From: Burkholderiales bacterium
Lineage (GTDB): Bacteria; Pseudomonadota; Gammaproteobacteria; Burkholderiales; Usitatibacteraceae
Direction: 5' to 3'
Assembly (NCBI GenBank): GCA_025360815.1
Contig: JANYBL010000014.1
Location: 1 to 39,956 of the forward strand
DNA: 39,956 nt
The notes under the pieces were generated by a model. That model had not been told where the DNA came from. It searched no databases and saw nothing but the letters and a program-made list of their open reading frames with translations. Made by a program: the position numbers and the translations under genes. The stretch's first letter is position 1; every line of letters starts with the position of its first letter. Shown in pieces: positions 3-8,500 of this stretch.

Positions 3-866
3 GACCAAGCCGGAAACGCCAACTACACAGCAGCACCGCAAGTAACGGCGACCATCACCATCTCCGTACCCGCCAAGGTCTACTACATCCATGCCGATCA
101 TTTGGGCACGCCCCGCGTCATCACCGCCAGTGACACCAACACCAAGGTGTGGGAGTGGAAGAACGACGAGCCGTTTGGGAACAACATCCCCAACGAAAAC
201 CCGTCAGGCCAAGGCAACTTTAGCTACAACCTCCGGTTTCCGGGGCAGGTTGCCGACCAAGAGACGCAAACACACTACAACTATTATCGCGACTATGATC
301 CCACCACCGGACGGTATGTGCAGAGTGATCCGATTGGCCTACAAGGCGGGTTGAATACTTTCTCCTATGTGAAAGGGAGCCCGCTCACTTACATTGATCT
401 AAATGGACTGGAAACCGGGTTTCCAGGTATGCCGTGGCCAGGTATAAATCCGTTTGCGAACTTCCCTAAGTCTTGTAGCTGCCCAGTTCCGCCGGCTATG
501 CCGGTGCCTGCAGCTTCGTGTCCAGCCAACAGCGAGGTGGACAAGAACATCAAAGAAGCCAAAGAGCGTTACAACCCATTCTGGTTTTATAACCAGGTTC
601 GCAACAAAGGGCCGTGGGACTACAAGCAGCAAGATAAAAAATTTCAGGACTTCGGAAATTTCAACTATGGGGCCACTGGCGCTGCTTTGGGATTCCCAGA
701 CGCGGTGCTTTACCGCATGGCTGGCTGGGCTCAGCAACAAGCTGGCACATCAAAACTGGAGTGGGACAAGCCTTTGGGAAATGCGCCCTATGGCGATGAT
801 CCGGAAGATCAAATACAGATCGCGAAGGGCATTCAATACTTTCGTTGCGGGTGTAATAAGAAATGA
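3..866 (+). CDS. RHS-family polymorphic toxin, C-terminal part (type-44-like toxin tip)
   Basis: This is the 3' end of an RHS-repeat protein; the reading frame is open to the left edge, so the gene begins outside the window. The visible 287 residues first show the RHS core end: the YYIHADHLGTPR motif (about residues 23-34), then YYRDYDPTTGRYVQSDPIGLQGG and a YVKGSPLTYIDLNGL ending near base 410. That junction normally separates the conserved shell from a variable toxin. The following ~150 residues carry WDYKQ, FGNFNYGATG, RMAGWAQ and PYGDDPEDQ motifs, which I recognise as the 'bacterial toxin 44' type (from memory, not searched). RHS proteins are effectors in contact-dependent competition, delivered by type VI or other routes. 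No delivery gene lies in the window. The next gene starts inside its stop codon and is the likely immunity gene. The toxin's enzymatic target cannot be read from the sequence. Confidence 0.88.
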   Translation, partial: DQAGNANYTAAPQVTATITISVPAKVYYIHADHLGTPRVITASDTNTKVWEWKNDEPFGNNIPNENPSGQGNFSYNLRFPGQVADQETQTHYNYYRDYDPTTGRYVQSDPIGLQGGLNTFSYVKGSPLTYIDLNGLETGFPGMPWPGINPFANFPKSCSCPVPPAMPVPAASCPANSEVDKNIKEAKERYNPFWFYNQVRNKGPWDYKQQDKKFQDFGNFNYGATGAALGFPDAVLYRMAGWAQQQAGTSKLEWDKPLGNAPYGDDPEDQIQIAKGIQYFRCGCNKK

Positions 867-1439: not shown

Positions 1440-1690
1440 TGGGCGTTTCCAAGCAATTTCGCCTCAAACGCCGCATGGATGGTAGGGTTTACTTATTTAT
1501 CGGCGGCATCAAATGCTGGGGCAGCACTAACCAGCTTGGCCAACTCGGCAACGGCAACTTTGAGCCCAGCTACACACCGTCCTATGGACAACGGGGTCAG
1601 GTATCCCATCTTGCAGCGACAACGCAGTGCGGACCTGGAGCACAGGGCTCGGTCTCGGTCTCGACAATTGCTGCACGACATCATTAAGCA
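1440..1690 (+). pseudogene. RCC1-repeat protein remnant
   Basis: Between the lipoprotein stop at 1249 and the IS end at 1738 there is no intact gene. In one rightward frame, about 1498-1575, the translation IKCWGSTNQLGQLGNG followed by NFEPSYTP is a textbook RCC1/BNR-type propeller repeat. Only this single repeat is present, whereas functional RCC1 proteins carry several. The flanking residues show no family resemblance and no start with a ribosome binding site is visible. I therefore read it as a decayed fragment of a larger propeller protein, consistent with the broken mobile DNA beside it. The rest of 1250-1737 shows nothing I can name. Confidence 0.45.
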
Positions 1691-1737
1691 CGTTTAAATC
1701 AGATATTCCCCTCGATAAACCGCTGATGCAGACGCAT

Positions 1738-1775
1738 TGAGCGAGGTCCGATTTAGTGGCCGGGCAAGTTAATGC
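1738..1775 (+). repeat. left terminal inverted repeat of the IS3-type cassette
   Basis: This 38-base end begins TGAGCGAGGTCCGATT and closes with CGGGCAAGTTAATGC. It pairs with the reverse complement of 5021-5058 at 31 of 38 positions (counted by hand). It overlaps the last codons and stop of the orfB remnant, as is usual at the right-hand end of IS3 elements. Confidence 0.75.
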
Positions 1776-2013
1776 ATGATGCAGCCAATTGCCGCTCTGA
1801 TTCGTTGAACGGTTTTGCCCAATCAGCGGGTGACTGATTGCCGATCTTGTCGTGACGCCTGATGCGGTTATAAAAGACTTCACGATATTCAAACACCACC
1901 CGCCTTGCGTCTTCGCGTGCCGCAAGACGGTAACGAGGCAAGCGCTCGGTCTTCAATGTGCCAAAGAAACTTTCCATCGGCGCGTTATGCCCCAAGGGCA
2001 TCTGTGACGACAA
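1753..2013 (-). pseudogene. IS3-family transposase OrfB, C-terminal fragment
   Basis: The leftward frame gives about 85 residues that match the end of the IS3 OrfB integrase domain: NAPMESFFGTLKTE carries the last catalytic glutamate of the DDE triad, followed by a YNRIRRH segment and a QSPADW close to the end. A complete OrfB is roughly 280 residues, so some two thirds are missing. The residue before NAPMES is histidine where the family usually has aspartate, and resemblance stops there, which places the break near 1990-2000. No start signal precedes it. It is one half of the split transposase of the cassette at 1738-5058. Confidence 0.85.
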
Positions 2014-2025
2014 TAGAAGCCGTAC

Positions 2026-3321
2026 TTATCTAACGGTAAGCCGTCCTAGACGCACCTTTGAACCGCCTTGGGAGTCCCTCGAAATCTCGTATACCCCTTG
2101 TGGCAAGAACAGTGCAGCTTGCGTTTGCGCCTCATCCAACAGCACCTGATCTGCTGCCACATCGCCGCCAATTACTGGCAACGCGTGCGCACGAAGCAAA
2201 GTACGCTGTGGTTGCGCCTCAATAGTTACCGTTACAGGTTTTCTGTCGCCCCCCAGAGCAAGCCAGTGTCCTCGTCCAAGCAATTCATCCGAGCGTCCAT
2301 GAAACACCGTCATATCAAAACCAAGCGAAGACAGCCATCCACCTCCTTTTTGTCGAAAGACCGTAGATTGATTCTGGCGCAGGGATGCCTCCAGCGCCTG
2401 ATAAATTGGCGTATCGAATTTTTTCTCACTTGCTGGCGTGCCGGCCCCTTGCTCAATTGACAGCACATCAGCGCCAAGTTCGTCCATAAGAAGGCGAGCA
2501 AGCATTTTGAGACCTCGCTCTTGTGGAATTTTCGCGCCGTGACTGCCACCTACAACAAGTAACACGCGAGCAGCAGGATTTTCCTTGAGTATCTGAATGA
2601 TGTTTTTTGCTTGAGCCACTTCTCTCCCACTGCGCTCTTCCAATAGGTCTCCGACGACATCTTGATCTTTGCGTTGTTCGTAGTCAAAGATGGTGTAACC
2701 ATTCGCGATCGAACGACGTATGAATTCTGACATCACCGGATCCAAAGTATAAAACCCAGAGGATATTTTCGGCCCACTGGTCATCACCTTTGTCCCCGCT
2801 TCAGGAACGAGCGCTTCAATCCCCACATGCGTGAAGCCCGTCCTCCTTAGCGCTTTGCCAACGGAGTAGATAAAAGCACGCTGCCGTTGGCTATCGTGCG
2901 TCTCATTGACAATCACTACCTTATGCAATCGTGCTGCTGAAACAATTTCTTCGACGGCATCGACTGGCGTCAACACATCGATATCAATGCTCTTGTCTGG
3001 TTCGCTTCCACGCCGCCCTTGATCGGCAAGCTTTCTTGTAATCAAATCACGTCCGACGAAAACGCTGAATTGAGTTGCAAACGCACTCATGTTTTGTTGT
3101 TGCTCTGAGAGACGTTCGGCCACGAGGAAGGCTTTAAGCGGCTGATCTTCTTTCACCAATGCGTCTTGCGCTGTCGTGAAGTCTTCTTTCTTCGATGAAG
3201 GCGAAAGCGATGATGGTGTCGTGACCGCCACTGATGACGATTGACATCCGGCTAACGCTAGTACCACCGCGATGATTAGCAAGCTGCAATTCCGGTCATG
3301 CTTTTTGAGCTTTAATTTCAT
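2026..3321 (-). CDS. lipoprotein with a ChaN/Tiki-like domain (tentative)
   Basis: This gene encodes 431 residues starting MKLKLKKHDRN, with a lipoprotein signal ending in lipobox LAGC (Cys near 26). A serine/threonine-rich linker follows. The central part has VVIVNETHDSQRQR (about 130-145), then HVGIEAL and further on VLLVVGGSHGAKI. A charged residue plus histidine after a hydrophobic strand, and a later GxxH after a second strand, resemble the ChaN/Tiki/erythromycin-esterase-like fold; the match is by eye. Its substrate is unknown. The gene lies inside the IS3-type cassette, divergent from the lipoprotein gene at 3406, with 84 bases between the starts that probably hold both promoters. Its stop lies within about 30 bases of the orfB fragment, so it is passenger DNA. 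Confidence 0.75.
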   Translation of the reverse strand: MKLKLKKHDRNCSLLIIAVVLALAGCQSSSVAVTTPSSLSPSSKKEDFTTAQDALVKEDQPLKAFLVAERLSEQQQNMSAFATQFSVFVGRDLITRKLADQGRRGSEPDKSIDIDVLTPVDAVEEIVSAARLHKVVIVNETHDSQRQRAFIYSVGKALRRTGFTHVGIEALVPEAGTKVMTSGPKISSGFYTLDPVMSEFIRRSIANGYTIFDYEQRKDQDVVGDLLEERSGREVAQAKNIIQILKENPAARVLLVVGGSHGAKIPQERGLKMLARLLMDELGADVLSIEQGAGTPASEKKFDTPIYQALEASLRQNQSTVFRQKGGGWLSSLGFDMTVFHGRSDELLGRGHWLALGGDRKPVTVTIEAQPQRTLLRAHALPVIGGDVAADQVLLDEAQTQAALFLPQGVYEISRDSQGGSKVRLGRLTVR

Positions 3322-3405
3322 GTCTCTAACGATCTGAAGTAGAGTATTAACTATACTATTTTAATCTTGTGCAAGACCAATGACTTCCTAATTGAGGTGG
3401 TTCGT

Positions 3406-4692
3406 ATGGAGATCTACACAGCTATGAAACTACAAAAAATGATGTCGACGAGTATTACGCTCATAGCGGCTGCACGAAAAGAAATATACCTTCCGAGTAA
3501 GCAGCGAAACGAGCGGAAGACAACACGTTTGAAAATTGCAGTGCGGACACCACAATGGACTATTCTATTAATCGTGTGCACGTTGTCGATGAGCGGTTGC
3601 CAAACCCGGCTGACTGCAAAATCTCCCAAAGCGCAATCTGCCTCCGTCCAATGCTCGCTCGTGCAAGACATCGTAACCATTCCACATACCTCGCAATTGC
3701 TTTTCACCGACAACGTCGGCGATCGCATAATGCTGGTATCGATACTGAGCAATACAGCCTCGGTTATTTCTCTAGATGGGACTTCTGATGGCGTTGCAGT
3801 TACTAGCGACGGACGTACTGCCTTCGTAGCTACTAATTCCCGCGACGATGCCTTCATTTCTGTTTTGCACATTCCAGATGGAGCAATCGGGGCGAAGATT
3901 TTGTTACCGGCGCGCGCAGTAGGCGGTATTACTGCAAAGGGGGATGGCAGTGCCATTTTCGTTCTGGCCGCCACACCACAGCTCACGCTCTTGAAAGTGA
4001 ACCCTTCCACTGCAGAAGTTATTTCATCCACAACGATTGAAGGAAGCACCAAGTACTCCCCGCTAAGGAAACCAGTTTTTCTCTCGCTTGATGAAGGAAC
4101 TGTTTTCATACTTGACGCATGGCGAGCCAATGGAGGGTCTGTACTTCTTGCTTTCGATACCGCGACCATGCAGATGACCCGCGAGATTGACCTTGGCAGG
4201 AACGTTTGCGACATCGCGATGAGTGCTGACAAGCGTGTTGTCGCGTTTAGCAAGAACATTCGTGACCAACTGCAGCCAGAGCTGCTCCGTGGCGAAGTAA
4301 AACTCTTAGACCTTTCGGCAGGGCTCGTAACAAAGTCCTATGGCTTAGAAGCCGGGGTACTGGGGCTCGCATTTGCTCCAACAGGAAACGCATTGTGGGC
4401 AGCGCATGACCAGGTAGTACCCGGTGCCTTTTCACGAATCGACCTCTTCACAGATAAGATACAGTATATTAAGACTTATCAAGTTTTTCCCGCCTCCGTA
4501 GCCAAGCTTCCAATTGGGGACATGCTTTACTTTGTAAGCGTTGGAAAAGTACCAGACGGCGACGCAAGTTGTGTAGTCGGTATCGATACTAATACGGCAC
4601 AATTACGCGAGCGAATTGAATTGCCGAATTCAGCCTCGAGCCAAGAACCAAAGCGTGAGTGTCCATCAGTAGGTCTTCAAACTAGCAGGTGA
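3406..4692 (+). CDS. beta-propeller-like lipoprotein
   Basis: The product is a secreted protein made of repeated short beta segments such as DGVAVTSDGRTAFVAT, SLDEGTVFILDA and IAMSADKRVVAFS, typical of YVTN/NHL-like propellers of about six or seven blades. The membrane segment TILLIVCTLSMSGC ends in a lipobox. The start is unclear. The ATG at 3406 follows a good AGGTGG at five bases but leaves about 55 residues before the lipobox cysteine, which is too long for a lipoprotein signal. A TTG at 3529, behind GGAAGA, would give a normal signal peptide and a 387-residue protein. It is the second passenger of the IS3-type cassette. Its last 11 bases overlap the convergent recombinase-tail/orfA fragment. 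No enzyme motif is visible. Confidence 0.7.
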   Translation: MEIYTAMKLQKMMSTSITLIAAARKEIYLPSKQRNERKTTRLKIAVRTPQWTILLIVCTLSMSGCQTRLTAKSPKAQSASVQCSLVQDIVTIPHTSQLLFTDNVGDRIMLVSILSNTASVISLDGTSDGVAVTSDGRTAFVATNSRDDAFISVLHIPDGAIGAKILLPARAVGGITAKGDGSAIFVLAATPQLTLLKVNPSTAEVISSTTIEGSTKYSPLRKPVFLSLDEGTVFILDAWRANGGSVLLAFDTATMQMTREIDLGRNVCDIAMSADKRVVAFSKNIRDQLQPELLRGEVKLLDLSAGLVTKSYGLEAGVLGLAFAPTGNALWAAHDQVVPGAFSRIDLFTDKIQYIKTYQVFPASVAKLPIGDMLYFVSVGKVPDGDASCVVGIDTNTAQLRERIELPNSASSQEPKRECPSVGLQTSR

Positions 4693-4993
4693 ACCCAAAC
4701 ACCACCCGCTTCTCCCGCCAGCCCGCTGGCACTCCTCGCCGCAGCGCCTGCAAGTTCAAATGTCGCGGCTGCAGTCCCTGCAGAATCGCTTCAACGATGT
4801 CGGGCACCAGGTATGTCATCCGCATCACCTCACTCACACAACCCAGATCCACCTTGAAGCGGTTGGCGATGTCGAGCTTTCGGCTGACCTCGGCATGCGC
4901 GCGCTTCTGTTCTGTTCTGTTCTGTTCTGCCACAAGCTTGATGGCTTCAGCCTTGAACTCGGCTGTAAAGGTACGACGGGGGATGCGTTCCAT
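4682..4993 (-). pseudogene. chimeric remnant: IS3 OrfA N-terminus joined to a recombinase-like tail
   Basis: The frame opens with MERIPRRTFTAEFKAEAIKL, the typical N-terminal helix-turn-helix start of an IS3 OrfA, at an ATG (4993) five bases after AGGAG. After about 40 residues the resemblance changes. VSEVMRMTYLVPDIVEAIL, then LQALRRGVPAGWREKRVVFGF, resembles the C-terminal tail of serine-recombinase-type proteins that read 'LAPDIVEAIL...L.L..WAEQRRxLGF' (recognised from memory). The joint is near base 4870. A pentanucleotide run sits in the orfA part. OrfA proteins are normally about 90-100 residues with a leucine zipper, which is absent here. The fusion is most likely a decay product that records two mobile genes meeting. 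Confidence 0.65.
4905..4929 (+). repeat. pentanucleotide repeat (TTCTG)x5 inside orfA remnant
   Basis: Five perfect TTCTG units lie in the coding frame of the orfA remnant, at residues reading NRTEQ on the opposite strand. The unit length is not a multiple of three, so gain or loss of one unit would shift the frame. Related OrfA proteins lack these extra residues, which suggests a slippage insertion. Confidence 0.8.
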
Positions 4994-5020
4994 GGTGGCT
5001 CCTGACAAGTTGATCAAGTG

Positions 5021-5058
5021 GCATCAACTTGCCCGTCCAGATAATCGGGCCCCGCTCA
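5021..5058 (+). repeat. right terminal inverted repeat of the IS3-type cassette
   Basis: This is the partner of 1738-1775. Read on the minus strand it begins TGAGCGGGGCCCGATT and ends CGGGCAAGTTGATGC, 27 bases ahead of the orfA ATG. Seven of 38 positions differ from the left end. Confidence 0.75.
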
Positions 5059-5389
5059 GTTTGCGAGCGTTGACGAAGCTGTAGCATTCGAAAAATCGCC
5101 CAAGCACTCGGCGCTGAAGGCAAGCCGCGACGAGGCGACTAAGTGGCGATCATTTGTCGTCGAAGGTCTTGTCAAGTAAGTGCCCAATCTATGCCAACCA
5201 GTGCAGCCTAACATGTCAGCCAATCAGGACGCGCCAAATGGTAGCTCTCATATTCAACGCGCGTTTCGTGGCGCGCCCCTTGCCTCGGTCGTTAAAGCCA
5301 TATAAAACTCTAGCACTAGCGCGGCGTTTGCAGCATTTTTGCCGCAAACGCCTCGCCGAATGGACACTTTAGCCAGATTCCGCTACGCC
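5059..5389. other. gene-free stretch with an inverted repeat at 5323-5352
   Basis: No gene with a plausible start and family resemblance is seen here. A short rightward frame near 5092 reads IRKIAQALGAEGKPRRGD and stops; it may be the end of a lost DNA-binding protein, but it is too short to name. At 5323-5334 and 5341-5352 a GGCGTTTG-type arm pairs at 11 of 12 positions around a six-base loop. Neither strand has a T run after the stem, so I do not call it a terminator. Confidence 0.4.
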
Positions 5390-5429
5390 GTCATTTCGTC
5401 ATTTCGCTACTTCGTCATTTCGCTATTTC
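5390..5429 (-). repeat. 8-bp tandem repeat array downstream of the oxidoreductase gene
   Basis: Five units of eight bases lie here, read on the plus strand as GTCATTTC, GTCATTTC, GCTACTTC, GTCATTTC, GCTATTTC. On the coding strand of the neighbouring oxidoreductase gene they read GAAATGAC or GAAGTAGC, each holding TGA or TAG. A related 8-bp array (GAAGTGAG) lies behind the gene ending at 39763. Confidence 0.85.
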
Positions 5430-5447
5430 GTTGCAAGGCAATTTCAC

Positions 5448-5522
5448 GATTCCCTCATGCACCACTCCCCTACGCAACACTCCCTTACGCACCATTCCCT
5501 TACGTACCGCTCTCCTACGCGC
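5448..5522 (-). repeat. 15-bp tandem repeat array with a stop codon in every unit
   Basis: Five imperfect 15-base units follow the oxidoreductase stop codon directly. In that gene's own frame, after GCG TAG GGC, every unit repeats a stop: GCG TAG GAG, ACG TAA GGG, GCG TAA GGG, GCG TAG GGG, GCA TGA GGG. The unit length of five codons keeps the stops in frame. No gene or terminator is seen in the array. Confidence 0.85.
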
Positions 5523-5523
5523 C

Positions 5524-8500
5524 CTACGCCGCCACCTTAATCCGAATCTCCTTGCCTGCCGAGCCAGCAACTGGATTTCGAAACTTTGCTAGCAATTCGG
5601 CCTCCAATTTTTTGGCCTCTTTAAAATGCGCTTCTTTCACGTGACCATAGCCGCGTATATGTTCAGGCACAGTGGCTATATCGACAGCGACATCGTAATT
5701 TTCTGCTGACAAATTTGCGAGAATTTCATCGAGAGTGGCGACGTAATCCACAATCAATTGTCGCTCCATTTTGCGCTCTGCGGTGCGGCCAAAAATATCC
5801 AATGCGGTGCCGCGCAAGCCTTTAAATTTAGCCAACAACGCAAAGGCAGTCATCATCCATGGGCCGAAGGTTTTCTTTTTGGCCTCACCGGTTATTGCAT
5901 CGACTTCGCTCATGATTGGCGGGGCAAGATGGAAGGTGAGTTTGTAATCGCCTTCGAATTGCTCGGCGATGCGCTTAACAAAATCGGTTTGCGTGTAGAG
6001 CCGTGCGACCTCGTATTCGTCTTTATAAGCCATCACTTTGAAGGCGTAGCGAGCAACTGCCGCGGTGAGTGCTTTTTTTGCAGGGAATTTTTCCGCTTCC
6101 ACTTTTTGTACCCTGGTAACCAAAGCACGATAACGCTCTGCATAGGCGGCGTTTTGATAGTCGGTTAGATACTTCACACGACGCTCAATCATTTCCTCAA
6201 TCGTTTCCGAAAGGCGTTGGCTGTCTGGTTTCGCCTCTGGCGGCGTCGCAATTTTTTTCACGGCATTCAAATCTACCGCCGCGCGGCGACCCCAATCAAA
6301 GGCCTGTTTGTTTTTTTCAACTGCCTGACCGTTCAATTCAATCGCCCGCATGATCGCGGCTAATCCGATCGGGATTTGTCCTTTTTGCCATGCATAGCCC
6401 ATCACAAACGGATTGGTATAAATTGCATCGCCTAACAATGAAGTCGTGAGTGAGCCGGCATCGACAAAATCGACTGCGGTCATCGCCTCTCGTAGCACAT
6501 CTTGCATCTCCGCCACTGGAATATGCAGATCGGGATTTTTTACAAACTCGCTTGTGGTCGCAACGTCGGCATTAACCACACCACGCGTTTTCCCCTTTTG
6601 CATTTTGGCCAACGCTTCATCACTCGTCGATACGATCATGTCGCAGCCAAGCAATGCGTTGGCCTCGCCTGCGGCGATGCGGACAGCATGAATATCTTCT
6701 GGATTGTTGGCGATGCGAACGTGCGTATATACGCTGCCGCCTTTTTGCGCCAACCCGGTCATATCCAACACGGCCACGCCTTTGCCCTCCAAGTGACCCG
6801 CCATGCCGAGCAACGCGCCAATCGTGACCACGCCAGTGCCACCCACGCCGGTGACGAGAATACCGTAGGGTTTATCGAGCGATGGCAGCGTTGGTTCTGG
6901 GATGGCGGTCAATACCGCTTGCAAGACCGGCTTTTTCTTGCGTAATGTGCCACCTTCAACGGTGACGAAGCTCGGGCAAAAACCTTTGACGCAAGAGAAA
7001 TCTTTATTGCACGACGATTGATCGATCATGCGTTTGCGGCCAAATTCAGTTTCCACGGGCGAGACGGAAACGCAGTTCGATTTTTTGCCGCAATCACCGC
7101 AGCCTTCACACACCGCTTCGTTAATCACGACGCGTTTCGCCGGATCGGGATAACTGCCGCGCTTCCGGCGGCGACGTTTTTCTGCAGCACAGGTTTGGTC
7201 GTAAATCAGCACAGTCGTGCCCTCGACCTCACGAAGCATCCGCTGCACGGCATCCAACTCATCACGGTGATGCACAGTCACGCCCGGTGCCAAGCCAGCT
7301 TGTATTTCAGCGTTCTGATACTTCTCCGGCTCGTCGGTGACCACCACGACTTTTTTCACACCCTCGGAAGCAACCTGATGGGTGACCATTGGCACGCTAA
7401 TCGGCCCATCAACCGGTTGGCCACCCGTCATCGCCACGGCATCATTAAACAAAATTTTGTAGGTGATGTTTACGCCGCCCGCAATCGCGGCACGAATCGC
7501 GAGCAAACCCGAATGGTAATAAGTACCATCGCCTAAATTCGCAAAAATATGCTTGGTAGAGGTGAATGGCTGAATACCCACCCAAGGCACCCCTTCGCCA
7601 CCCATTTGCGTAAACGTCATCGTTTCTTCGGGCCGAATCCAAGTTGCCATGTAGTGGCAGCCGATGCCTGCCAACGCTTTGGATCCTTCAGGAACTTTGG
7701 TTGAAGTATTGTGCGGGCAGCCGGAACAGAAGGTTGGAATCCGCGATACCTTGGCGCGCGGACGCTCCAACGCGGCTTCTTTGTCCTCGATAAATTTTAG
7801 GCGCGCTTCGACAATTTTTGACGTGTAGAACTTCGCGATACGTTTGGCAATCACGCGCGCGATCATGGCCGGCGTGAGCTCACCGGCGGCGGGTAACAGC
7901 CACGCTTGGCGGGCCATTTCCCACTCACCGTGCTCGTCGTATTTACCGATCACACGGGGACGTACATCGTCGCGCCAGTTGTAAAGCTGTTCTTTCATTT
8001 GGTATTCAATAAGCTGGCGTTTCTCTTCCACCACCAAAATTTCATCCAAGCCCAATGCGAATTCGCGCAAGCTGGTCGGCTCCAGCGGCCATGGCATGCC
8101 AACTTTCATTAAGCGAATCCCGATCTCAGCCGCGTGGCGCTCATCAATGCCCAAATCTTCCAGCGCTTGCAGAACATCGAGATAGCTTTTCCCAGACGCA
8201 ATAATGCCGAGGCGCGGGTTGGGCGCATCGATGGTGACGCGATTTAATTTGTTCACGCGTGCGTAAGCAAGCGCGGCGTAAATTTTATCGTGTTGCAAAC
8301 GAAGTTCCTGCTCCAGCGGCGCATCGGGCCAACGCAACGAGAGGCCTTTTTCAGGCATCGGAAAATCTTCAGGTAGTAATATTTTGGGATTATCGGGATC
8401 AATCAATACCGAAGCTGATGCATCGACGGTATCCGAAATACATTTGAATGCGACATATAAACCAGAATAGCGGGACATCGCAAAACCGTGCATGCCAAGA

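Follow-up and report, generated by a model that had tools for sequence, protein, structure and literature searches.

Features of the locus

The element under study occupies positions 1738-5058 of the window, that is, of the whole 39,956-nt stretch that was analysed. It is bounded by an inverted repeat of 38 nt with 82% complementarity and 3245 nt between its arms, and a simple equal-base estimate puts the chance expectation for such a pair at about 3e-4 per 40 kb. The initial annotation had described an imperfect 38-base repeat around 3.3 kb, end pieces of orfA and orfB in correct order and orientation, and two divergent lipoprotein genes in the middle. All of this was recovered here: the order and orientation of the pieces agree with an intact insertion sequence (IS) in the same-genus genome G003, and both lipoprotein frames are open (Table 1).

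Table 1. Features of the element, with related short sequences elsewhere (window positions unless a stretch is named; C, contigs of the same genome; G, genomes of the genus)
Feature	Position	Strand	Basis or remark
Terminal inverted repeat, orfB end of IS3-type element	1738..1775	-	Repeat search; same end in C72, C51, C83, G004, G003
3' piece of IS3 orfB, starting shortly ahead of the NAPMES motif and running to the IS end	1738..2000	-	
13-nt hairpin TGCCC-TTG-GGGCA	1988..2000	-	Tail of short orfB insert
ChaN/Tiki-like lipoprotein gene, open, 431 aa	2026..3321	-	
Propeller-like lipoprotein gene, open, 383 aa	3541..4692	+	
3' half of small ORF, in-frame fusion to orfA	4682..4863	-	
5' piece of IS3 orfA, with TTCTG x5 array	4864..5058	-	
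Terminal inverted repeat, orfA end	5021..5058	-	Repeat search and copy alignment
Pentamer array in other copies	L009 about 2803-2878; L012 about 328-361		
Palindrome-bearing sequence	L014 (C57) near 2529	-	
Palindrome-bearing sequence	L021 (C12) near 2429 and 2583	-	
Palindrome-bearing sequence	L042 (G005) near 1788	-	
Palindrome-bearing sequence	L045 (G005) near 1637; window 1988-2000		

The assignment to the IS3 type follows from matched terminal inverted repeats together with orfA and orfB pieces of that type. The orfB piece matches rve_2 and rve_3 above the Pfam cut-offs and covers profile positions 310-367 of 369 of the IS3 transposase NF033516 (E 2.6e-17), with a score below the whole-protein cut-off, as expected of a fragment. 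The orfA piece resembles HTH_Tnp_1 below the cut-off (E 1.1e-4; 22.7 bits against 24.1). Only the start of orfA and the part of orfB from NAPMES onwards remain between the ends, which leaves no usable transposase, and the 2863 bp at 2001-4863 are non-IS sequence. The TTCTG/CAGAA array in the orfA piece (4905-4929) comprises five units; its length varies among copies, with many more units in C72 and no array in G003.

To the left of the element, positions 102-1249 encode an Rhs-core C-terminus with an Ntox44-like toxin domain. The next ORF, of 128 aa, overlaps it by 4 bases and has the look of a lipoprotein; it could serve as the immunity partner of the toxin. On the other side of the element, short tandem arrays (5377-5520) adjoin the 3' end of an indolepyruvate oxidoreductase gene; in G003 (L220, 531-2596), a 29-base match recurs eight times, spaced by 291 bases from the end of the same gene.

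Passenger genes and the enclosed segment

The ChaN-like protein resembles PF04187 (ChaN/Tiki) below the family cut-off (E 0.027; 14.9 bits against 27.7); its relatives from G005 and from G010 likewise fall short of that cut-off (E 0.002 and 0.003). An N-E-x-H motif (NExH) is invariant in all four aligned sequences. Its lipobox is LALAGC by our own reading. The G005 and G010 relatives, 37% and 36% identical, lie on contigs other than this locus. Counting its own genome, the protein was found in three of 100 relatives at E 1e-3 and in two of 369 class genomes at E 1e-10; three plasmid records hold relatives with 23-31% identity. A scan of genome contigs with the ChaN-like protein, reaching close relatives only, returned none, and the alignment of the ChaN-like proteins matched no solved structure.

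For the propeller-like gene we chose the GTG start at 3541, the frame being open from 3367, and read the lipobox as LSMSGC. No Pfam family matches the protein above its cut-off. It was found in three of 100 relatives and eight of 369 class genomes, its own genome counted, and the seven class matches outside this genome are weak, partial and distant (26-32% identity). None was detected in the 12 other same-genus genomes or in plasmids, and neither passenger protein was found in viral contigs. The name 'propeller' is a tentative one, taken from weak matches and from a low-confidence, beta-rich single-sequence model.

In GC content the passengers (0.50-0.51) differ little from the remainder of the window (0.52), as might be the case if both genes were old residents around which IS pieces had been inserted or had decayed by chance. 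This explanation is very improbable: neither gene was seen at this place in the nine relatives in which they were looked for, the propeller-like gene has no match in the 12 other same-genus genomes, the ChaN-like relatives are confined to two of these 12, and the right junction encloses part of an ORF that comes from elsewhere.

That ORF is one detail that the initial annotation had missed. The 5' part of an IS3 orfA is indeed present at 4864-5058, but the 111-aa ORF at 4682-5017 is only partly orfA, its C-terminal part (4682-4863) coming from another protein. For these 62 residues, searches of Pfam and NCBIfam up to E 10 returned no family within the HMMER filters; their relative, with 52% identity, is a separate 125-aa ORF on an Eleftheria plasmid. 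Since this ORF adjoins a serine recombinase and a DUF2924 gene, the one 62-aa stretch suggests that the enclosed DNA came from a mobile island. The C-terminus of the serine recombinase was also considered as the source of the fragment and was rejected, the recombinase itself aligning meaninglessly and the Eleftheria relative being an ORF of its own.

Copies of the IS in the genome and in the genus

A DNA search of the same genome with positions 1700-5100 gave 19 matches, namely the window itself and 18 others; 18 of the 19 are confined to 1736-2000 or 4861-5060, and the segment 2001-4863 is single copy but for a few bases. The genome is a draft of 129 contigs in which several IS copies sit at contig ends, so that this picture is incomplete. 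Contig C72 carries a gutted copy of about 605 bp with both ends and no passenger, and C120 the same mini-IS truncated by the contig start; the orfB piece of the window is 97.7% identical to the former and 98.5% to the present part of the latter. C72 and C120 have a common internal-deletion junction between orfA and orfB, GACATCGCCA/GGCTTACC, and different orfA-side flanks, and for this reason gutted copies of this IS have likely moved in trans. Contig C72 ends in 7 bases identical to the flank of the C51 copy, and that end of C72 may be mis-assembled.

Other copies are degraded in different ways. C40 and C113 have another internal deletion in common (IS positions 308 to 510), the orfB fragment of C83 contains both a stop and an insert (78% to the G003 orfB protein), and in C51 unrelated DNA, present once in the genome, abuts the orfB end beside the same hairpin. 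In C40 (L013, 2904-2943), the orfA-side end resembles the orfB-side end (90% identity to window 1736-1775), as though an exchange or conversion of ends had taken place. Eight rve matches were obtained in the genome: C83 alone belongs to this IS, and it is broken; the proteins of C45, C105, C103, C75 and C12 share 37-57% of their residues with the orfB protein of G003, and that of C85 is unmatched. No intact cognate transposase was found among these eight, in a draft that breaks at several of these repeats.

The intact IS3 copy with the same ends, for which the initial annotation proposed a search, is present in the one-contig genome of G003. This IS of about 1.29 kb has an orfA of 99 aa from its ATG and an open orfB frame of 319 codons; a first copy was read from end to end, a second and a third are complete and >99.7% identical to it, and the matches listed include eight orfB ends with 77-78% identity to the C72 element. 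A 3-bp target duplication was seen in two of the four placements examined. One intact copy lies inside another (L066, 1449-4021) with the 3-bp duplication ACT. The window pieces correspond to positions 1-180 (orfA, 76%) and 1032-1286 (orfB, 78%) of this IS. The window thus has the ends and the ORF pieces of the G003 element in the same order, whereas the G003 element is intact and multi-copy and the window pieces are only 76-78% identical to it. By sequence comparison, the two ends of the window element come from one IS3-family element, because the gutted C72 copy and the intact G003 copies each have both; the alternative of two different IS types was ruled out on the same grounds.

Junctions and proposed history

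The orfA piece of the window stops at the base where the deletion of C72 and C120 starts (GACATCGCCA/ACCGC, the slash marking the break). By our estimate, the chance that a breakpoint in an IS of about 1280 bp falls no more than one base from a chosen position is about 3/1280. On the left, the foreign DNA starts at the foot of the 13-nt hairpin, the tail of a short GC-rich orfB insert that is whole in C72, C120 and C83 and partial in C51. Between junction and hairpin, C72 has about 93 bp of orfB where the window has 2863 bp of other DNA.

The reading that fits these observations best, with a probability of roughly 45%, is that the element is left over from a lineage of non-autonomous IS3-family mini-IS elements and that foreign DNA entered one copy of it. 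An IS copy would first have lost its middle, giving an element of about 605 bp with both ends, the orfA start and the orfB end, and a transposase acting in trans would have carried this form to two or more further sites (C72 and C120). One copy of the lineage may then have gained the 2863 bp at the deletion junction, losing about 93 bp up to the hairpin. The outcome would have the anatomy of a mobile insertion cassette (MIC), movable in principle by a cognate IS3 transposase acting at its ends, and it now most likely sits as a scar around two intact genes. The order of events, the trans mobilisation and the foreign origin are what we infer from these comparisons.

Substitutions bear on kinship in both directions. 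At column 93 of the left piece, a derived base is common to the window, C72 and C120 against C51, C83, G004 and G003, and at column 219 the window and C72 have a derived base against the others, C120 being without sequence there. Column 235 conflicts with this, the window sharing its base with C83 alone, and two further left-piece sites pair C72 with C51 and C120 with C83. Changes common to C72 and C120 and absent from the window occur at column 157 of the left piece and column 112 of the orfA piece, with a further, ambiguous one at column 128; the window is therefore placed, with moderate confidence, as at best a sister of C72/C120 within one mini-IS lineage. The group of window, C72 and C120 is weakly supported, with an ultrafast bootstrap of 60. 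The mini-IS reading draws on the ends, the shared right junction, the bases at columns 93 and 219, the single-copy segment and the open frames, and it is tempered by the bootstrap value, the conflict at column 235, the changes common to C72 and C120 alone, the truncation of C120 by a contig end, the possible mis-assembly at the end of C72 and the lack of a target duplication. A hot spot or short homology could instead account for the right-hand break shared with C72 and C120.

The column 235 base also fits a different origin, in which two separate IS copies, as a decayed composite transposon or by chance neighbourhood, flanked a slice of an island and lost their inner halves. This is a possible, if doubtful, history. 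The genome contains dispersed ends and partial copies of the subfamily, the C51 orfB end shows the same hairpin beside unrelated single-copy DNA, and the missing target duplication agrees with it; this history leaves unexplained the coincidence of the right-hand break with the deletion junction of C72 and C120 and the lack of an inner half of either IS, and the orientation of both pieces, which fits one IS, would be one chance in four.

The C51 junction, taken together with the window cassette, permits a broader version of the mini-IS reading, since different DNA is joined beside the same hairpin in the two. The lineage would gain genes repeatedly at the junction and the orfB hairpin, and an outside transposase would spread the loaded forms. 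This is improbable; if true, MITE-like IS3 derivatives would work as gene-capturing cassettes.

Mobility of the passenger-carrying copy

No target-site duplication was found at the element ends, which are flanked by GCAT and GTTT; this counts as weak evidence, because two of the four G003 placements examined lack one too. The draft genome yielded no second copy of the cassette. To the right of the element lies the oxidoreductase gene, present in 10 of 13 genus genomes, this one included, and nine same-genus relatives were read beyond it (G005 with only 363 bases there). At the corresponding place in these nine, blastn gave no similarity to the element: the matches in eight of them fall within window 5522-6000, and G009 has none. 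No empty or second site was recognised among the nine, in which the element flanks are not conserved. One sequence of 57 bases resembling the left flank (window 1657-1713, 84%) occurs in G004, at another genomic location.

It would fit the anatomy if ends and cargo moved together by means of a transposase encoded elsewhere. A related IS is intact in several near-identical copies in G003, and gutted copies of the subfamily are dispersed in this genome. Such a full cassette is nevertheless unlikely, given the single copy, the lack of a target duplication (absent from half of the G003 placements as well), the lack of a second or empty site in the relatives read, the broken state of the one cognate rve match and the absence of any DNA match in plasmids or phages. 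Mobility of the passenger-carrying cassette is therefore not supported: it was found only once in the draft, target duplication and empty or second sites were looked for without success, and no intact cognate transposase came to light. From the cassette interpretation of the initial annotation, the ends from one IS, the lack of a usable transposase and the open passenger genes stand, and neither of the observations that it named as refuting, ends of different IS types or the two genes at this place without IS ends, was made in the relatives read. Its mobility gains no support here, and the same two genes between such ends elsewhere, or an empty site, were found neither in the draft nor in the relatives read. 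We call the element a MIC-like IS3 relic of unproven mobility.

A short palindromic sequence in orfB

A short palindrome-bearing sequence occurs at two conserved orfB places in different IS3 elements. At the first, just before NAPMES, it is 23 nt long in C12 and in L042 (G005), and the C72/C120/C83 lineage has a longer relative there; at the second, just after the FY/WY residues, it measures 27 nt in C57 and 26 nt in C12. Its 19-nt core, GAAGGAAGTCCCCTTGGGG, was found in at least 120 stretches of public genomes (L082-L201), with many Burkholderiales, Rhodocyclales and Pseudoxanthomonas among the matches listed. Identical 3-mers stand on both sides in 28 of 110 copies of a 24-nt core among the matches listed, and in 24 of these 28 they are GAC..GAC. 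In L184, near 2338, the core lies in frame within a transposase-like frame and reads APKEVPLGD. The sequence looks like a very small dispersed element, for which a literature search found nothing.

Comparison with known systems

Mobile insertion cassettes and MITEs are treated as established concepts in passages of three papers (PMC3129680, PMC3281130, PMC2266710), and one abstract mentions both a mobile insertion cassette and a miniature inverted-repeat element on an Aeromonas plasmid (PMC5444012). The C72 and C120 copies are MITE-like internal deletion derivatives; the window element has their right-hand junction but differs from such derivatives in its length of 3.3 kb and its two open genes.

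The cassette MIC231 of Bacillus cereus was reportedly described by Chen in 1999 and De Palmenaer in 2004, both cited in PMC2266710. Its ends are of the IS231 type, and IS231 is placed with IS4. In MIC231 as in the window, IS ends without a transposase enclose unrelated genes, whereas the window ends are of IS3 rather than IS231, end pieces of both transposase ORFs are retained, and target duplication and second copy are lacking. The window element has ends of one IS type, no functional transposase and passengers unrelated to transposition, and on paper it resembles a mobile insertion cassette; it is not classed as one because a target duplication and a second copy were looked for and not found. 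What is new here is that the right break falls on the junction base of C72 and C120 and the left break at the foot of a hairpin common to them; earlier reports of IS3-based cassettes may exist, and no priority is claimed. If the cassette ever moved, it would represent an IS3-based, passenger-carrying insertion cassette, in which a mini-IS without a transposase acquired cargo. At present it is chiefly an example of IS remnants framing acquired genes.
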